A stretch of 64,000 bases of DNA, from the NCBI GenBank assembly GCA_038734275.1, contig JAVYOO010000008.1, positions 1 through 64,000 on the forward strand. The letters run 5' to 3'. A program made the position numbers and the translations under genes. This DNA is from Archaeoglobaceae archaeon. Its GTDB lineage: Archaea > Halobacteriota > Archaeoglobi > Archaeoglobales > Archaeoglobaceae. The notes below the pieces were generated by a model. It was not told the DNA's origin. It did no database searches and was given only the letters and a program-made list of their open reading frames with translations. Positions 46,898 to 62,033 of this stretch are shown here, one piece after another (the stretch's first letter is position 1; each line of letters opens with the position of its first letter).

Positions 46898-46993
46898 ACT
46901 TAAATTTTGAAAAAAGAGATTTAAATTTATTCACACTCAAGTTTTGTTCTGCTACACGAAATGTGCTTTCAATATGCATTTATGGATTTTATG

Positions 46994-48246
46994 AAGTTAT
47001 TCCCATTTTGGTCTGATTTCAACTTGCGATTGGTGCGAGTATAACGACATTTGTGATAACGACGCAGCTTTCAATCCCATTTTGGTCTGATTTCAACATG
47101 ACAAATTATCAATCATGACAGACACAGCGTAGCATCTTTCAATCCCATTTTGGTCTGATTTCAACTCTATGCCAACGATATAGATAAGTCTCGTAGAATC
47201 TGACTTTCAATCCCATTTTGGTCTGATTTCAACTTTGATCTATATTCTCGTAATGCCACTTATACTCGTCTTTCAATCCCATTTTGGTCTGATTTCAACA
47301 GGTAAATTTACGAACTCGTGGGGACACTGTTTTAATCTTTCAATCCCATTTTGGTCTGATTTCAACATGAAATGTTAGTAAAGGTATCAAACGTAAAGAA
47401 AAACTTTCAATCCCATTTTGGTCTGATTTCAACCCATTTCCCCCGACATTCCTGCGATACAGGATCCAACTTTCAATCCCATTTTGGTCTGATTTCAACC
47501 ATTTGACGCAGATAGTATAACACATCTGCAATTACTCTTTCAATCCCATTTTGGTCTGATTTCAACATTTTGGGCAATGTAAGTTTTCCAGCTCTGCTTA
47601 TAGACTACTTTCAATCCCATTTTGGTCTGATTTCAACGCGAGCAAGCGAGGAAACAATTCAGCAATTAAACAAGCTCTTTCAATCCCATTTTGGTCTGAT
47701 TTCAACAAAACAGATAAAAACACTTTTTATTAGTCCAGAAGCCAACTTTCAATCCCATTTTGGTCTGATTTCAACCGAGCAAGATAATTTAATGCTTTAT
47801 AAGGTGTCGATACTTTCAATCCCATTTTGGTCTGATTTCAACGGACTCGCTTGACTATTTCGCATGGAATGTGTATGACTTTCAATCCCATTTTGGTCTG
47901 ATTTCAACTAATTTTTCGAAATCAGAGCTCCAATCCCGTGGTGTTCTTTCAATCCCATTTTGGTCTGATTTCAACAATAGTGTTTGGTTGTAATGGTGGT
48001 TTGATATATGACTTCTTTCAATCCCATTTTGGTCTGATTTCAACTTTAGAGGGAGATTGAAGGCCCTTACACCAGTATTTCACTTTCAATCCCATTTTGG
48101 TCTGATTTCAACTTTCATTTGAAACTAAAACATCTTTATAGTTAACGCCACTTTCAATCCCATTTTGGTCTGATTTCAACCTTACCTATGCTTCTAACAT
48201 AGACCAGCGAGCCTGCCTTTCAATCCCATTTTGGTCTGATTTCAAC
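46994..48246 (-). CRISPR. CRISPR array, 19 repeats and 18 spacers, transcribed on the minus strand
   Basis: Thirty-base repeats occur 19 times. On the minus strand each starts GTTGAAATCAGACC and ends ATTGAAAG, the usual 8-base tag of type I-B crRNAs. Eighteen copies (47068-48246) look identical; the first on the plus strand (46994-47023) has a changed outer end, as expected for the trailer-side repeat. Spacers are 36-41 bases, plus one of 44 beside the degenerate copy. The trailing repeat on the left and the leader on the right both give minus-strand transcription. Frames across the array are spurious. Confidence 0.97.
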
Positions 48247-48757
48247 CTTATGAATTTTTACTCCTTTCTCAATTTAAAGCTTTCTAATGCCTTCTTTTAT
48301 TTATATATTCTCGCAAACCTCCAAAGTTGCATGTCATTTATAAAGGTGTGCGACTTTTTTCTTCGCATTCTTTTTGAATTTAATCACTTTTAAAAAGCTT
48401 TTTTAAAAATTGAGGTAATTTCAGCAGGGTAGAGCTTAAGAATAAAAATAGTAGAGCTCAGATTGGCAAAAGGAGGAAGTATAAAAAATAAGTCTTTGCA
48501 ATAATAAAGGAAAATTTTATCGCATGCGACTTGCTATTTGGGCTTTGATTTTGATTTAAGGCTTTTAAAAGTTTTTTGTTGAGTTTTGGGCGATTTGCTC
48601 AGGGATACGGTTGAGCTTGTGACTCTCTTCTGCATTTCACCTTAAAATCAAGGAAGGTATAAAGGTCAAAACAACGAGAACTAATAGGGAATTGAAGCCT
48701 TAGAGTTAAAGCATGTAATCAAAGAAAGTCTTTTATCTTAATAAAACAATTTAATTT
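48247..48757. other. CRISPR leader and divergent cas4 promoter region
   Basis: The AT-rich 511-base gap contains no gene. On the minus strand a strong TATA element (ATATATAAAT, about 48299-48308) predicts array transcription from near 48278, about 30 bases before the first repeat. A near-palindrome around AAAAAGCTTTTT lies at 48388-48408 and could bind a regulator. The plus-strand cas4 promoter would lie near 48730-48740, before a leaderless ATG. Confidence 0.6.
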
Positions 48758-49252
48758 ATGCTCGACGAAATGTATGTTCGTGGCACGCAGGTTAACTACT
48801 ACTTTGTTTGCAAAACAAAACTATGGCTTTTCAGCAAGAACGTTTCGATGGAACAGGAAAGCGACCTCGTGAAGCTTGGTTCGCTTTTGCAGAGGCAATT
48901 TTTCGGCAGAGAAGAGAAAGATGTTAGCATTGGACCAATTTCTATCGATGTTTTAAGGCGAGGCGATGAGATTGAAATTGTTGAAGTCAAAAAATCAGAT
49001 TCTATCGAGAAGGCGGACTATTATCAGGTTCTCTATTACCTTTACTACCTCTCAAAGTTTGGAATCAAAGCTAAGGGGAGAATAAGTTATCCGAAAAAGA
49101 AAAAGGTTGTCGAAGTAAGACTTGAAGAAGAAGGAGAAATCGAAGAAGTTCTGGAAAGAATAGCTGAGATACTTGCTGGAGAGATGCCAAAGCCAGAATA
49201 CAAGTCTTATTGCAGAAAATGTGCTTACTTCGAATTCTGTTTCTGCGGGTGA
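48758..49252 (+). CDS. cas4: Cas4 RecB-like nuclease
   Basis: The 164-residue protein has the RecB nuclease motifs (D64 in ISIDVL, E76 and K78 in VEVKK, Q90 in DYYQ) and the four-cysteine iron-sulfur set: C18 and C152, C155 and C161 at the end. It trims prespacers and sets PAM choice with Cas1. An ATG at 48770 is an alternative start. It is immediately followed by cas1. Confidence 0.93.
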
Positions 49253-49256
49253 ACTT

Positions 49257-50222
49257 ATGAGGAAGAACTACTACATAATCTCCGACGGAAAGCTGATGAG
49301 GGATGAGAACACGATCTACTTTGAAAATGAAGAAGGAAAGAAGCCAATCCCGATAAACACGATCTATGCAATCTACGCCTTAGGCTCTCTCAGCATAACT
49401 TCCAAAGCGATATCGTATTTAGCAAAAGAAGGCGTTTGCATTCACTTCTTCAACCGCTACGGCTTCTATGAAGGTAGCTTTTATCCCCGCGAGTCTCTGA
49501 TCTCAGGCGAAGTTGTTTTAAGGCAAGCTGAGCACCATCTTGAAAAAGAAAAAAGACTATACTTGGCAAAGGCTTTTGTTGAGGGAAGCATTTTAAACAT
49601 GGCAAAGGTAGCGAAGAAGAGCGGAGAAGACGATACCGACATAATTTCAACCCTACAAAGCCTTTACGATGCAAAAAGCATTGCGGAGATAATGGGAATT
49701 GAAGCAACCGCGAGGAACGCTTACTACGAAAAATTCGATAGCATTCTCAAGGAGCTAAAGTTTGAAAAGCGGAGCAGACAACCGCCAGAGAATGAGGTAA
49801 ATGCGATGATCAGCTTTGGAAATTCTTTGCTTTACTCAGCGGTGCTCTCAGAGCTCTATCATACACAGCTGAATCCAGCGATAAGCTACCTGCATGAGCC
49901 GTCAGAGAGGCGCTTCAGCTTGGCTTTGGATCTTGCTGAGATCTTCAAGCCCTTAATCGTTGATCGTCTGATATTTAACCTTGTGAACAACAGAATAATC
50001 CAGAAAGATGATTTTGATCGAGAAATGAATGGAATTCTACTGAACGAAAACGGAAAGAGAAAGTTTGTCAAGGCTTTCAACGAAAGGCTTGAAAAGACAA
50101 TAAAGCATAAGGATCTTAACAGAAACGTTTCATACCAGCGTTTGATCAGGCTCGAATGCTATAAGCTGATTAAGCATTTCTTTGGCGTTGAAAAATACAA
50201 GCCCTTTGTGATCTGGTGGTAG
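49257..50222 (+). CDS. cas1: Cas1 integrase
   Basis: The 321-residue protein (ATG at 49257) has the catalytic residues E149 ([11 protein letters not shown]), H213 (YLHEPSERR) and D225/E228. Integrates new spacers with Cas2. The frame upstream of 49257 overlaps cas4 and has no family match. It is five bases after cas4 and one base before cas2. Confidence 0.96.
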
Positions 50223-50223
50223 T

Positions 50224-50487
50224 ATGTATTTGATCATCGCCTACGATGTTAACGTTGAAAGAGTCAATAGAGTTAAGAAATTCCTGCGAAAGTATCTACA
50301 CTGGGTTCAGAATTCTGTTTTCGAGGGTGAAGCGACGCAAGCGACGCTTGAAGAGATAAAAATGGGGCTAAAGGATATAATAGATGAAAATGAAGACATG
50401 GTTGTGATCTATAGGTTCAGAAGTGCGGAAGTCTTCAAAAAGGAAGTTTTGGGGATTCAAAAGGGTTACTGCGAGGAAGTTATCTAA
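50224..50487 (+). CDS. cas2: Cas2
   Basis: The 87-residue protein begins MYLIIAYDVN with the active-site Asp (YDV) and has the ferredoxin-like fold order, ending with VVIYRF and the C-terminal strand. It bridges Cas1 dimers. Ends the cas4-cas1-cas2 adaptation operon. Confidence 0.95.
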   Translation: MYLIIAYDVNVERVNRVKKFLRKYLHWVQNSVFEGEATQATLEEIKMGLKDIIDENEDMVVIYRFRSAEVFKKEVLGIQKGYCEEVI

Positions 50488-50804
50488 TTTTTAGCCAATT
50501 TGTTAATTCTGCACATTCATAAGTCATTTTCGCTGGATATTATTTTTAATATAAGCTTTACGTTAGCTTTGCTCACTATTACTGTTTTAATTAGAGAATT
50601 TTATGACTGCAAAGCTTTTATTTTGCCTTGCCTGTCTATTAAAAGAATTTATCCGCTGGAATCTCGCTAAAATGGTGATTTTGCTCATATCTCTGGAGCA
50701 TTTTTAAGAGCAAAAAATCGCAGAAATTCTATTGAATTTTAAATTTTTCAGAATTTTCTTATGCGAGAGAAAAATATAAAACCAAGTAGAACAAAATTGA
50801 TCCA
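50488..50804 (+). other. 317-base intergenic region between cas2 and hepT
   Basis: No supported gene. The right end holds a TATA-like AAATATAAAA (50773-50780), about 28 bases before the hepT ATG. The rest is AT-rich with no repeat or tRNA-like fold that I could find. Confidence 0.5.
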
Positions 50805-51209
50805 ATGAGAAAGGAGAGATACAGAGAGAAAATCGAATATATACTCGAAGCTCTTGACGAGATTCCAGAAGAACCCAAAAGGCCAATTGAGGTTAGCGGA
50901 ACCTTTTACAACCTTCTAACATCAATCGAATCCGCTATGGACGTCTGTGCCATGCTTGTGAAAGATCTTGGAAAACGTGTTGAAGACGATTATTCGAATA
51001 TCGAAATTCTTCATGAGCTGGGTATACTTGACAAAGAGCTGGCTGAAAAGCTAAAAACTTGCAATGGGCTTAGAAACTGGTTGGTTCATAGATATAACAA
51101 ATTGGATAAAAAAATTGTGCTTGAATCGGTTGATAAAGTCAGGGAAACCCTTATTGGGTTTATAAGAAGGGTTGAACATGTTCTCGAAACCGAGCATCGA
51201 GGAGATTAG
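50805..51209 (+). CDS. hepT: HepT-like HEPN ribonuclease toxin (DUF86)
   Basis: The 134-residue all-helical protein has the HEPN RNase motif RNWLVHRY (Rx4HxY), the active site of HepT toxins. The Tyr is the site modified by the partner MntA in studied systems. It overlaps the mntA gene by 32 bases. It lies between cas2 and the cas3 operon. A TATA box lies about 28 bases upstream, so the pair probably has its own promoter. Confidence 0.85.
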   Translation: MRKERYREKIEYILEALDEIPEEPKRPIEVSGTFYNLLTSIESAMDVCAMLVKDLGKRVEDDYSNIEILHELGILDKELAEKLKTCNGLRNWLVHRYNKLDKKIVLESVDKVRETLIGFIRRVEHVLETEHRGD

Positions 51210-51606
51210 AAAAGAGCTTAATGCTCTATCGAATTACGAAGCTGTGCTCTTTGGTTCTTACGTAACTGGAGAGTTCAGAATTGGCTCTGACATCGATGTT
51301 GCGGTAATCACAAGGCTGAGAGATCTACATAAGAATCTTGAGATCCAGAAGAGTCTAATAGGAAAATTCAGGCAGGTTTACGATGTAAGAGTTTTCGAGT
51401 TGTTACCAATAAAGATCAAAGCTTCAATTTTTAGCAATTATCTCGTTCTTTTTGGCGACGAGCTTGAGATCTCTGAATACTTTTACTGGTGGAGAAAAAT
51501 CTGGGAAGACGTGAAGCATAGGATAAGCTATCATAGTAGCTATGAAGAGAAGCTAAAAGCGATCGAAAGGGGAAAAAGGTTGGAAGAGATTTTGAGGAAG
51601 TTTTGA
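51178..51606 (+). CDS. mntA: MntA-like minimal nucleotidyltransferase antitoxin
   Basis: The 142-residue protein has the nucleotidyltransferase signature GSYVTGEFRIGSDIDVAV, the GSx10DxD motif. MntA adds AMP to HepT and silences it. The ATG at 51178 is preferred; the frame begins at a TTG at 51172. It follows hepT by overlap, as in known MNT-HEPN pairs. Confidence 0.85.
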   Translation: MFSKPSIEEIRKELNALSNYEAVLFGSYVTGEFRIGSDIDVAVITRLRDLHKNLEIQKSLIGKFRQVYDVRVFELLPIKIKASIFSNYLVLFGDELEISEYFYWWRKIWEDVKHRISYHSSYEEKLKAIERGKRLEEILRKF

Positions 51607-51784
51607 TCACTTTGGTTTCGAGATTTTTTGTGAAGCGAAGATCTGCTATTTGCGTTTTGCACGGCGATTAAAAATGGTTTATGAGCCATATTCGATGATT
51701 GGAATCTCAAGAAGGTCTTTTCGCTACTTTGGAGTTTTAAATGAGAAGAAAAGGCTTATTCTTTATCTATTCAGAGGAGTTCGC

Positions 51785-52174
51785 TCAGTATTCCTCGATC
51801 CTAAGCTCTTTAACTCTCTTAAAATGCTCATCCCTTGTCACCAATGTTAGGTCGAAGAGAATCGCTGTTGCAGCTATCACAGTGTCGCTGAAGGGAAGAA
51901 CTTCTCCCATTTTCATGAGCTCCGCATCGATTTCTGCGGACTTTCGCGCAATTTCCAGTGTGTAGGGAATTATTTCAAATCTTGATAACATGGATTCGCC
52001 AAGTCTTATCTTTTCATGGTTTCCAAGATAAAAGAGACCTCTGAGAACTTCGTGGACTGTAACTGCGGATATTGCTTTAATGTATGGCTTTTCATCAATT
52101 TCTCGTGCTTTTTTGATCGCACTTGGGTCGTGCTTCATTAGATCTATTAAAAAGGAGGAGTCAAAGAGCCACAT
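51785..52174 (-). CDS. vapC: VapC-type PIN-domain ribonuclease toxin
   Basis: The 129-residue protein has the PIN acidic residues: D5 and later in FDSSFLIDLMK, E44 region (HEVLRG), and D97-type in PFSDTVIAA plus TRDEHF. It would cleave RNA. Its gene overlaps vapB by 28 bases, the usual antitoxin-first order on the minus strand. Confidence 0.9.
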   Translation of the reverse strand: MWLFDSSFLIDLMKHDPSAIKKAREIDEKPYIKAISAVTVHEVLRGLFYLGNHEKIRLGESMLSRFEIIPYTLEIARKSAEIDAELMKMGEVLPFSDTVIAATAILFDLTLVTRDEHFKRVKELRIEEY

Positions 52175-52374
52175 TTTTTCATCTCAGCCTCTTTTTGCCT
52201 TTTTATAAGCTCCTTTATCATTTTTGCCTCATCTTCTTCAAGAATTTTCGGAATTTCGCCTATCTTTTGCCTCTCCAGAAGTCTTCTAATCGCATCGCTG
52301 AAAGATTCTCCCTTCATTTTCGCCTTCGAAAGCATCTCGTAAACTTCGTCTGAGAGGGCAATCGTTTTCGCCAT
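52147..52374 (-). CDS. vapB: VapB-type antitoxin (DUF217/UPF0330-like)
   Basis: The 75-residue protein starts MAKTIALSDEVYEML with a short ribbon-helix-helix-like N-terminus and an acidic/basic helical tail. The ATG at 52374 lies about 25 bases after the TATA box TTTATATG (near 52397-52405), so it is leaderless; the longer frame to 52416 lacks support. Pairs with vapC. Confidence 0.85.
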   Translation of the reverse strand: MAKTIALSDEVYEMLSKAKMKGESFSDAIRRLLERQKIGEIPKILEEDEAKMIKELIKRQKEAEMKKCGSLTPPF

Positions 52375-52557
52375 GATGCATATTTGTATATATATGCATA
52401 TAAACTTTTCCATCATTTAAATAGAGGAGACCAAAGGACTTACTCAAAGATGCTAAGCGGCAGAATGGAAAAGAAAATTTTAAAGGACTAATCTCTTTCA
52501 ACGATTGCCTCTCTAATTCTGACACTGATTTTTGGAAAATTTACTATTTGCAGTCTT

Positions 52558-54745
52558 TCAAAAAACAATCTCCGAATCTCCCAATTCTTCGAGTAGTCCA
52601 AGCTCTGGGCTGTATTTGAGGTTGGTAAACAAGAGTTTGTTATCTGAGTCGTAGCTAAAAACTTCGCCGAGCTTGCTTTTTAAACCGAAGAATTTGCTTC
52701 TTTGGATTGGAACAAGATAATCGTAGATTTCGATCGCTTTTCCAAATTTAATTAATTTTAGCACTTCATCAACAAAAGTCATCGGAATCACTTCAAGAGA
52801 GTCGAACATCTCGTAGAACCTCTCTTCAGTTTCACCTCTTTCTAAGGGTTTGAGTTCTTCGAATAAACTTTTGGCAATGTTCTTATATTCCCTAACTTTG
52901 CTCAGAATTTCTTTAGCTACTGGAGAATACGCTTGAGTAACGAGTTCGGGTATAACCGACTCTCGAAGCGGTTCGCTATCGAACTCTTCTAAAATTTTTA
53001 TCGTTTCTTCCACAATTTTATAAGGGGAGTAAATTTTCTCATCTACATCCGAACCTTTGGTGAGAACGTTCACATCAGATATTTTTCCTTGCACCCACCC
53101 TTGTCTGTTAACTCTACCAAATCGCTGTATTAGTGCATCTAAAGGTGCTGGTTCAGTCAAGATTGTTTTGAAGCTTATGTCTAATGACACTTCTACAACT
53201 TGGGTTGCAACGACGAATTCGTAGTTGTTCAGATTGTTTTTCAGATTTCTCTCAATTCTTTCCCTATCTCCATATGTAAATCTGCCGTGAACGAGTAGAC
53301 ATTTTCTTCCAGACTCCTTTAAAATTCGATAAATGTTGATAGCGGTTTCTACGCTATTACAACAAATTAGAGCAGGGATTAAATACTCATCGGTGAATTT
53401 GGAGGCATATTCTTGGATTTTATCGTAAATCGTTCCATCAACTATACGAATTCTATGTCTCGTGAATCTATCCGCCTCTTCTTTCGAAACTTCGAGTTTT
53501 TTAAATTCTAAGGTTTCCTCAAACAACTCTTTTATGAAATCTGGAAATGTTGCAGACATAATCAAAACTCTTGTGTCTGAGTCTTTCAGCACTTCCAGCA
53601 TAGCTAAGATTATTCCAAGAACATTAGGTTCGTAAACATGGATTTCATCAAAAATTAAAACAGAACCCATTAGCTCGCTTAGTGTCATCTCAAAGTGCCC
53701 TACACCAAAAAAAGCCTTCATAATCTGGAATGGAGTGGAAACTTTGATTGGAGTGAATATCTTTTGATACAAACTCGAAAGACGGCGATATTCGAGATTG
53801 GAGGAGTATAGATAATGCTTTGTTGTACTGTGAAGAATTCCGACAAGCTCAGGTTCTTTTAAATAGCTCAAAAAACGCTCATACATTGCGTTTATGCTTG
53901 CTTTGTATGGCAGAATATAGAATATTCTGCTGACTATCTCATCGTTAACTTTCTTAGAATTAAAATCAGCCCACAGTAGTGAGAGTTCAGTTTTACCATA
54001 ACCAGTTGGAGCTCTAACCATTAAATTACCATTGGTTTTTCCAGCTTCGATTTGAAGTGTTCTTAGATTTTTATTTGGGATGAATTGCTCTAAAATGGTT
54101 CTAAATGATGGTAGAAACCTTATGGAGCTTTCACCAGCTGAAGCTAAATGATCGCAGGCATTTAGCAAACCTTTAAGAAGAATGAGCTCCCTTTTATATT
54201 CGGCGAATCTCTCTTCATAAAAATTGATTAGCTTCTCAAACTCGTATTCTTTAATCGCTTCTTTCCAGTTAGAAGGTAGATTAAATTTTCCCAAAACTTT
54301 CCCGAATGCGATTATTTCCCAGTAGGGGATTTTTGGTAAAAATACTTCTTCAATATAATCTGAGTTTTCCAAAAGTTCTTCGACTTTAGCCAAGTAATTT
54401 TCCCAAGCAAACTTCACATTTTTTGGAATTATAAGCCTATCATCCTCGTTGAGGTATTTGTGGTGAGTTAATATTGAGATCGCAACGAGTTTCTTCTGCT
54501 CCAAGTTTAAATTTAAAAACTCTGTAAATGGGACTGAGAGAACTTCATGTCTGAAATCCCATATTTTGTTACCTATGCCTGCTTTTTGAAAACCCATCGC
54601 GCATTTTCCTAAATCGTGTAATAAGACCGCATAAAAAAGCAGTATCCAGAAATCGTTGTTTTTGACAGCATCAGAAAAAGCAACCCTTAGACTTTTTAGA
54701 ACGTTAACACACTCGTTAATGTGACATTCGAGAAACTGATTTGGT

Positions 54746-54771
<26 letters not shown>
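52558..54771 (-). CDS. cas3: Cas3 HD nuclease-helicase
   Basis: The 737-residue protein has the N-terminal HD nuclease (H and HD near residues 17 and 52-53, LLHDLGK; later THHK) and the SF2 helicase: APTGYGKT, DEIH, SATFP, QRFGRVNRQG. HD and helicase are in one chain. It degrades target DNA after Cascade recognition. The ATG at 54771 is preferred over 54786. It overlaps cas5 by 26 bases and ends the interference operon. Confidence 0.95.
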
Positions 54772-57834
<3,063 letters not shown>

Positions 57835-57838
<4 letters not shown>

Positions 57839-58539
57839 ACAACCTTCACCATACCAAACCCCATCGAATTCTTCGCCCCAAAACCTGCCTTGTAGCCGAT
57901 CTCGAGCAATTCTGGGTTTCCTTTAGCTTCGAATACCATTTCAACACAGCGATGCCACGTGTCTTTGATCTTGATTCTCTTTGGCTTGAAGCTTATCGGC
58001 TTAAATTCAACCTCTTTGCTTTCAGGCTCTTTCCCATGAAGCAGAAAGTATTTCTTGATAAGGTTCTGCTTTAAAACTTCGTAAAACTCTCGCTGGGTGG
58101 GATAAAGATCTACTGCTTTTCCATTCTCCGCCTTTGAAACGTTTATCGGGCTTAGAGTGACAAACTTCTCCTTATCGGTGATTTTCTTCTCCTCAAGGAT
58201 CTCTACTTGAGATAACAAAAGCTTAGAGTTTCCAAGCTTGATCTCTGGCTTCATAAAAAGCCCTTCTACCAGCTTTTGTGCTATTTCGTTGCGAATTGAG
58301 GAAAAGAATAGGTGAACTTCTTCAGACTCTGCAATTATTTTGTCCCCCTCGATCCTCTTCTTTGGAATCATGAGCTTGCTGAAGGTGAAAAACTTTGGAA
58401 CGTTTGGCAAGTGAAGTTCCATGGAAAGCTTTGGTTCTGCTCTTTCAATAGCTCTATAAATTGCAGATGCAAGATGATAGGAGTAATTTACATTTATTAG
58501 TGAGGGGGATGGAATTCGAAATGATAACTTTAATCTCAT
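57835..58539 (-). CDS. cas6: Cas6 crRNA endonuclease
   Basis: The 234-residue protein (ATG at 58539, MRLKLSFRIPSP) has two ferredoxin-like folds and the C-terminal G-rich loop GFGAKNSMGFGMVKV. A histidine in SYHLASAIYRAI is a good general acid. It cuts repeats to leave the ATTGAAAG tag. Start codons at 58548 and 58563 are alternatives. It opens the interference operon. Confidence 0.92.
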
Positions 58540-58707
58540 CTTGTTCATCTTTTTCAAAGACAAATATATTTCTTTCGATTTCTTTCCTCAATGAGAAATG
58601 AAGAGTATCATATCCATAATCTTCTAATTGCAAAACCTCTTCCAGTATGGGCCTGGAAAGATAAACTCCAAAAAGGAAAAAATAAAGCCTTAATCCTTTT
58701 TTGAATA

Positions 58708-58801
58708 CGCCGGGGGTGGGATTTGAACCCACGCGGGCGATGCCCACACGCTTTCTGTTGCGCAACTCCAGGCGTGCGCCTTGCCACTCGGCAACCCCGG
58801 C
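58708..58801 (-). tRNA. tRNA-Ser (GGA) with a 13-base intron
   Basis: The minus strand gives a class II tRNA: acceptor GCCGGGG with CCCCGGC, discriminator G (Ser), a long variable arm (TGGGC...GCCCG) and T arm GTGGG-TTCAAAT-CCCAC. The anticodon stem CACGC pairs with GCGTG, but the loop between is 20 bases instead of 7. Removing 13 bases beginning near position 37 leaves the GGA anticodon. CTG and CAG can pair within the loop, leaving GAG and AAA as three-base bulges, as in an archaeal bulge-helix-bulge. The exact splice points are uncertain by one or two bases. The mature length would be 81 nt. Confidence 0.85.
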
Positions 58802-61517: not shown

Positions 61518-62033
61518 ATGGTTGTATACAAGGGTATTCAGATTGAGGCGTTGCATGAAGATATCACAAAACTTGAAGTTGATGCGATTGTAAATGCCGC
61601 GAATACGCATCTTTACATGGGAGGAGGTGTTGCAGGGGCTATAAAAAGAGCAGGGGGCAAGGAAATCGAGGAAGAAGCGGTAAAGCAAGGTCCTATAAAG
61701 ATTGGAACTGCTATTGCAACTTCTGCAGGAAGGTTGAAAGCGAAATTCGTGATCCACTCTCCAACCATGGAGCTTGACTTTAAAACAGATGAAAATAAAG
61801 TCCGTCTTGCGATGATCGCTGCCTTAAAAAAGGCTGAAGAGCTGAATGTTAGTAGTATAGCATTTCCAGCACTTGGTACCGGGGTTGGAGGGCTTGCAAA
61901 AGATCTTGTGGCAAAAATCATGGTTGAAGAACTTAAAAAGCATATTGATCGTGGAACTAAGCTTAAAAAAATTATTCTCGCCGATATAAATGAAGAACAG
62001 GTTGGATTTTTAAAAAAGAGCTTGGTGAGCTGA
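61518..62033 (+). CDS. Macrodomain ADP-ribose-binding protein
   Basis: The 171-residue protein has the macrodomain motif VDAIVNAANTHLYMGGGVAGAI and FPALGTGVGG. It would hydrolyse or bind ADP-ribose or O-acetyl-ADP-ribose. It follows the helicase by 19 bases and ends one base before the FAH gene. Confidence 0.92.
   Translation: MVVYKGIQIEALHEDITKLEVDAIVNAANTHLYMGGGVAGAIKRAGGKEIEEEAVKQGPIKIGTAIATSAGRLKAKFVIHSPTMELDFKTDENKVRLAMIAALKKAEELNVSSIAFPALGTGVGGLAKDLVAKIMVEELKKHIDRGTKLKKIILADINEEQVGFLKKSLVS

Follow-up and report, generated by a model that had tools for sequence, protein, structure and literature searches.

It is a standing question whether the toxin-antitoxin (TA) pairs found near clustered regularly interspaced short palindromic repeats (CRISPR) loci are just passengers or act as guardians. 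The case considered here is a 64,000-nucleotide window (the whole stretch of DNA analyzed; contig JAVYOO010000008.1, positions 1 to 64,000, of assembly GCA_038734275.1), part of the 1.73-Mb genome of a heat-loving Archaeoglobaceae archaeon, in which two such pairs, HepT-MntA and VapBC, lie between the adaptation and interference genes of a type I-B CRISPR-Cas locus. In related genomes, the same junction is strongly enriched in TA genes, and what is conserved is the place rather than a particular pair, because the occupants span at least seven TA families. The reading we favor, at a probability of roughly 55%, is that of an insertion-tolerant, recombining junction at which autonomous TA pairs are repeatedly captured, transiently penalize loss of the segment, and decay toxin-first. 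The junction lends itself to the standing question: its location is fixed and its occupancy has been measured, it has received many independent TA families, and the genomes compared include vacant sites, copies in decay, and the scar of a module replacement.

The junction in Archaeoglobi

The survey looked for Cas1 and TA proteins in 55 genomes from the family, with further Archaeoglobi taken from a named genome collection. A junction was defined as the convergent gap from cas2 to the next large gene. Across the class Archaeoglobi, TA genes or their remains occupy 18 of the 25 convergent gaps between cas2 and the next module, a figure that includes remnants, two loci cut by a contig end, and one locus without interference genes there (G001; G000 is the window's own locus, and other G tags are its relatives). 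A stricter automated count, using profile hits only, finds TA genes at 12 of 22 junctions. The seven TA-free junctions (G054, G047, G027, G007, G008, G011, and MAG-16) have gaps of 17–235 bp, with the exception of G011 (714 bp). Where cas2 and cas6 run in the same direction, none of six loci has TA genes in that gap, and two of the six have HEPN-MNT genes (MNT, minimal nucleotidyltransferase) behind cas6.

The density of PIN and MNT matches is 85.6 per 100 kb in the junctions compared to 1.09 genome-wide, about 80 times denser; in the same loci, the upstream flanks reach 0.9 and the 5 kb past the junction 2.3. Control convergent gaps were drawn from 1.2 Mb outside the locus in G001, G026, and G025; they hold TA genes in 5 of 166 cases (3%), or 5 of 41 among gaps of at least 500 bp. 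The contrast between 18/25 and 5/166 gives a Fisher p of 1.7e-15, with the related genomes not being independent. A safe-harbor effect of convergent gaps alone was considered and rejected on these control counts, along with those from the same loci, where 0 of 17 other convergent gaps hold TA genes. The position effect is strong. At least seven arrivals at this one gap are needed even if each TA family represents a single event, and the recognizable content of the longer junctions is nearly all TA, with other mobile or defense genes being scarce.

The occupants are varied, and many are decayed. HepT-MntA is present at G000, G026, G030, and G001, has a dead toxin in G051, has both genes broken in G004, and is a remnant in G025. 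VapB (PF02697) with VapC is seen at G000, with a decayed copy in G051. Pairs of a ribbon-helix-helix (RHH) protein with a PIN protein are found at G026, G002, and G003; G038 has the antitoxin alone, G039 an internally deleted fusion, and G004 and G017 RHH fragments. AbrB-PIN occurs at G025, G010, and JdFR-42 (broken), with other AbrB/PIN pairs in G025, G039, and L118. The remaining families are a DUF86-type HepT with MNT (G017), a HicB-like protein with a polbeta nucleotidyltransferase (G010 and G012), and a CopG-like protein with PIN (JdFR-21).

The two pairs of the window have different histories. All seven HepT-MntA-linked loci fall in one 16-tip Cas1 clade (support 93/96), two of the seven with decayed or remnant copies only, and a single change in the MntA tree separates the cas-linked copies from the others (77/80; HepT alone is weaker, at 67/73). 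The pair looks like one old arrival that was probably coinherited with one Cas1 lineage and then lost repeatedly. The nearest relatives of VapBC (62–70% identity) sit away from cas genes in G020, G018, G014, and G013, and at cas genes the pair is limited to G000 and a decayed copy in G051. Judging from where these relatives lie, VapBC is the younger of the two at the junction, a recent and mobile arrival. The earlier note on this DNA had said that its inference would fall if the pairs proved mobile and randomly placed in related genomes; this is borne out for the mobility of VapBC but neither for HepT-MntA, which keeps to its one Cas1 clade, nor for the place, which is strongly nonrandom.

Relatives of MntA and Cas1 were also sought in viral contigs and none were found, so that collection gives no hint of carriage by viruses. 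The ratio of nonsynonymous to synonymous change in the toxins is mostly saturated at synonymous sites; it is 0.14 for HepT between G026 and G030, a value that falls inside a recombined tract. In this pair of genomes (loci L067 and L038), HepT and its promoter DNA are 87–97% identical, while cas1, cas2, and mntA are mostly 62–88% identical, which looks like a recombination tract centered on the toxin.

The two pairs of the window

Genes were assigned from Pfam, NCBIfam, or PADLOC models. The order is CRISPR array, cas4-cas1-cas2 (plus), hepT-mntA (plus), vapC/vapB (minus), and cas3-cas5-cas7-cas8b1-cas6 (minus), and the interference side is typed I-B from cas3, cas5b, cas7b, cas8b1, and cas6. 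The features are as follows.

46985..48252, no strand: CRISPR array, 18 exact CTTTCAATCCCATTTTGGTCTGATTTCAAC copies and one degenerate end copy
48758..49252, plus: cas4 (Pfam Cas_Cas4, 1.5e-52; TIGR00372 above cut-off)
49257..50222, plus: cas1, type I-B Cas1b (TIGR03641, 481.6 bits, cut-off 304)
50224..50487, plus: cas2 (Pfam CRISPR_Cas2, 5.8e-23)
50513..50700, no strand: cas2-HepT intergenic stretch, strongly diverged from sister genome G051, with near-identical flanks
50767..50781, plus: element GAGAAAAATATAAAA, like a B recognition element (BRE) and TATA box, 29 nt upstream of the HepT ATG
50805..51209, plus: hepT, type VII TA toxin, HEPN RNase (Pfam HepT-like, 2.8e-22; NCBIfam HepT, 67 bits)
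51178..51606, plus: mntA, minimal nucleotidyltransferase antitoxin (NTP_transf_2, 4.5e-11; 32-bp overlap with hepT)
51785..52174, minus: vapC, PIN-domain toxin (Pfam PIN, 1.3e-17; matches solved VapC chains)
52147..52374, minus: vapB antitoxin, PF02697 (Pfam VAPB_antitox, 3.1e-14; overlaps vapC)
52376..52399, minus: palindrome ATGCATATATATACAAATATGCAT, putative operator, directly upstream of vapB and over a TATA-like element
52558..54786, minus: cas3, HD and helicase (TIGR01587, 3.3e-97; PADLOC Cas3b, 9e-207), 3' end toward the TA block
54746..55399, minus: cas5b (PADLOC Cas5b, 2e-53)
55380..56471, minus: cas7b (PADLOC Cas7b, 2e-73)
56468..57838, minus: cas8b1 (TIGR01908, 9.9e-64)
57835..58563, minus: cas6 (TIGR01877, 1.6e-52)

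The profiles confirm all the genes of both TA pairs, which the earlier note had placed between cas2 and the cas3 end of the interference genes, and its description of the active-site motifs as intact agrees with what is read from the sequence. HepT has the RX4HXY motif (R90-NWLV-H95-R-Y97), with H95 and Y97 invariant across 10 aligned sequences. The adjoining MntA has GSX10DXD (G26S27-X10-D38-I-D40), invariant across eight aligned sequences, and the two together have the marks of a type VII TA pair. The acidic residues D5, E42, D97, and D115 are present in VapC, a PIN toxin whose gene overlaps that of its cognate antitoxin, as in type II pairs. Against an NCBIfam cut-off of 60 bits, HepT scores above (67) and MntA below (44). 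The sole solved-structure matches of HepT are HEPN toxin chains (7ae9_A, 6e-05).

HepT apparently brings a promoter of its own, since the GAGAAAAATATAAA core is also found upstream of HepT copies away from cas genes (G020 and G019). The gap between cas2 and HepT is just 75–81 bp in G026, G030, and G001. From the known behavior of these families, HepT would be an RNase that MntA is expected to silence by attaching adenosine monophosphate (AMP) groups to Tyr97 in the RX4HXY loop, and VapC would be a PIN RNase held by bound VapB. Each pair would work independently; each has its own promoter-like element and lies outside any cas operon.

Passengers or stabilizers

In the sister genome G051, Cas1 and MntA are each 99% identical to those of the window, yet hepT is dead through a 2-bp deletion (frameshift) and a nonsense codon. 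Several lesions are present in vapC, vapB has a frameshift, and the operator-like palindrome of vapB is damaged, being partly deleted. Sequencing error is unlikely to be behind these changes: hepT, vapC, and vapB have accumulated multiple independent lesions, whereas mntA, cas1, and cas2 are free of them. The loss is thus toxin-first, with both toxins dead and mntA intact, and G038 likewise retains the antitoxin only. The interference module of G051 is of another kind (cas3 28% and cas7 30% identical to the window), and a 29-residue remnant (90% identical) of the window-type cas3 end lies between vapB and the new cas3. This remnant adjoins vapB, so the exchange of the interference module took place immediately next to the TA genes, before or after the death of the toxins.

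The sequences directly show what the genes are, with their motifs and positions, as well as the enrichment, the diversity of families, the decay, and the replaced module; beyond this, we infer toxicity, a cost of loss, and selection on that cost. The gap between two convergent 3' ends would tolerate insertion, and the locus would often recombine exactly there. Unrelated TA families would be captured, persist for a while, decay toxin-first, and be replaced, with interference modules meanwhile being swapped on the far side of the junction. While a toxin is active, deletion or replacement of the segment would be costly, so that loci with TA pairs would come to be overrepresented; a mutation in the toxin would release the brake and make module exchange possible. 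A stabilizing role of this kind is plausible. In a broader version, archaeal type I loci would reserve the junction between adaptation and interference genes for TA pairs, with any family able to fill it, and an active pair would set the pace of module exchange, braking it until the toxin decays. This version is put forward only tentatively and may well not hold. The pattern suggests a general explanation for CRISPR modules being kept together or reshuffled.

Several points weigh against a stabilizing role. The TA pairs prevent neither their own loss nor an exchange of the interference module: cas1 and cas2 are intact in G051, G004, and JdFR-42 even though the toxins there are dead, and G054 combines the same I-B module with a TA-free gap of 47 bp. 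The earlier note had suggested addiction modules that keep the locus; in its strict form this idea is not supported, and the dead toxins, the replaced module, and the TA-free G054 argue against it. The single origin of HepT-MntA at cas genes has moderate support only (77/80). Many of the surveyed genomes are metagenome-assembled, and the TA profiles were seeded from junction families, which biases the counts toward the junction over the control regions; the Pfam-based genome-wide counts escape this bias, but they come from a different method. Finally, a neutral hotspot would yield much the same pattern, and the sequence data separate the two readings weakly.

Such a hotspot, a point of frequent recombination and insertion where abundant mobile TA pairs accumulate without any effect on the locus, is the main rival and a serious contender, though we would not bet on it. 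Near-identical adaptation modules are followed by different interference types (G051/G000 and G004/G008), the TA families are diverse with many copies decaying, and both the relatives of VapBC elsewhere in other genomes and the separately recombined look of the HepT tract in G026 and G030 fit with it. It accounts less well for the longer junctions, which hold almost nothing recognizable but TA genes, for the rarity of TA genes in ordinary convergent gaps (just 3%), and for HepT-MntA, which is apparently long-resident and spread across at least three genera.

The earlier note had also proposed abortive-infection partners activated when CRISPR fails. On such a reading the pairs would be wired to the CRISPR system much as CreTA or CrePA are, and a failure of Cascade or of adaptation would release the toxins. 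The position beside cas2, the persistence of HepT-MntA next to one Cas1 lineage, and the existence of Cascade-dependent TA guards of type I-B systems (CreTA, PMC12737573) speak for it, and it is nonetheless quite improbable. Control of the promoters by Cascade is unlikely because the same HepT-MntA adjoins different interference types or none (G051, G004, and G001), and the GAGAAAAATATAAA promoter core is common to copies far from cas genes. The junction's three intergenic gaps were searched for repeat-like sequence of the CreTA kind, and spacers matching the TA genes or their promoters were sought as well; neither was found above shuffled controls, so that the sequence offers no support for abortive-infection partners or for Cascade control. 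One low p value (0.035/0.025) fell between cas6 and the next gene, at a tRNA gene, as expected given the tests made. The chance placement of two TA pairs in this single genome, which would draw on how common TA genes are (551 PIN and 483 NTP_transf_2 matches in about 95 Mb of the 55 genomes), has next to no probability left and is refuted by the survey (85.6 against 1.09 matches per 100 kb, and 18/25 against 5/166 gaps).

Known systems and neighboring features

In the Sulfolobales, vapBC pairs are interspersed in cas cassettes and a role in locus maintenance has been suggested (Garrett et al. 2015, PMC4390879). As there, true TA pairs lie among archaeal cas genes; that example, however, comes from a type III cassette within a plastic region and involves VapBC alone, whereas here the site is a fixed type I junction with many families. 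The counts of occupancy, decay, and control gaps are new with respect to that work. CreTA is a type VIII TA system that guards type I-B CRISPR-Cas (reviewed in PMC12737573), and it too lies inside the locus and is proposed to be addictive. It is an RNA pair with an antitoxin that resembles CRISPR RNA (crRNA) and acts via Cascade, whereas both partners here are proteins, no crRNA-like element was found, and the interference type varies beside the same TA pair. The "Live virus-free or die" proposal (PMC3506569) couples toxins to immunity operons; here also, toxin nucleases lie in immunity loci, with the difference that complete pairs with antitoxins are common here. A TA census from 2009 reported no strong link (PMC2701414).

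The mechanism of type VII HepT-MntA is known (Yao et al. 2020, PMC7641770; PDB 7ae9 family), and the pair of the window resembles it in its RX4HXY and GSX10DXD motifs, adjacent genes, and families PF01934/PF01909. It differs in that its MntA is below the NCBIfam cut-off and in that it lies directly behind cas2. The window has its toxin gene first, whereas MNT reportedly leads in nearly every such pair (PMC3710099). More distant genomes have related arrangements. In a phylum-level sample of Halobacteriota, AbrB-PIN lies between cas3 and cas4 in three genomes, two of which also have a gene that looks Fic-like by sequence, and HepT-MntA lies directly before cas4 in one genome. The 7ae9 pair, from Aphanizomenon, is presumably near a CRISPR-Cas locus as well. 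Most bacterial Cas1 relatives from the named genome collection showed no TA genes nearby when searched with archaeal profiles, which may underdetect bacterial TA families. In Methanophagales and in a related euryarchaeote (L126, L133, and L262), an MNT-HEPN pair separates cas1 from cas2, and an Alkanophagales genome has an RHH-PIN pair of the G026/G003 family (about 50% identical) between cas4 and cas1 (L124:560-1195).

On the far side of the window's locus, a tRNA gene, probably tRNA-Ser GGA, lies at 58708-58801 (minus), 145 bp before the cas6 start. In G004, a tRNA-Pro gene (L072:3682-3755) is found about 100 bp before a different cas6, and none was found when tRNA genes were looked for in 21 other loci. 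It may be that tRNA genes are points where interference modules enter the chromosome. Farther on, a macrodomain protein at 61518-62033 (plus) matches the PADLOC DarG model (2.6e-16).
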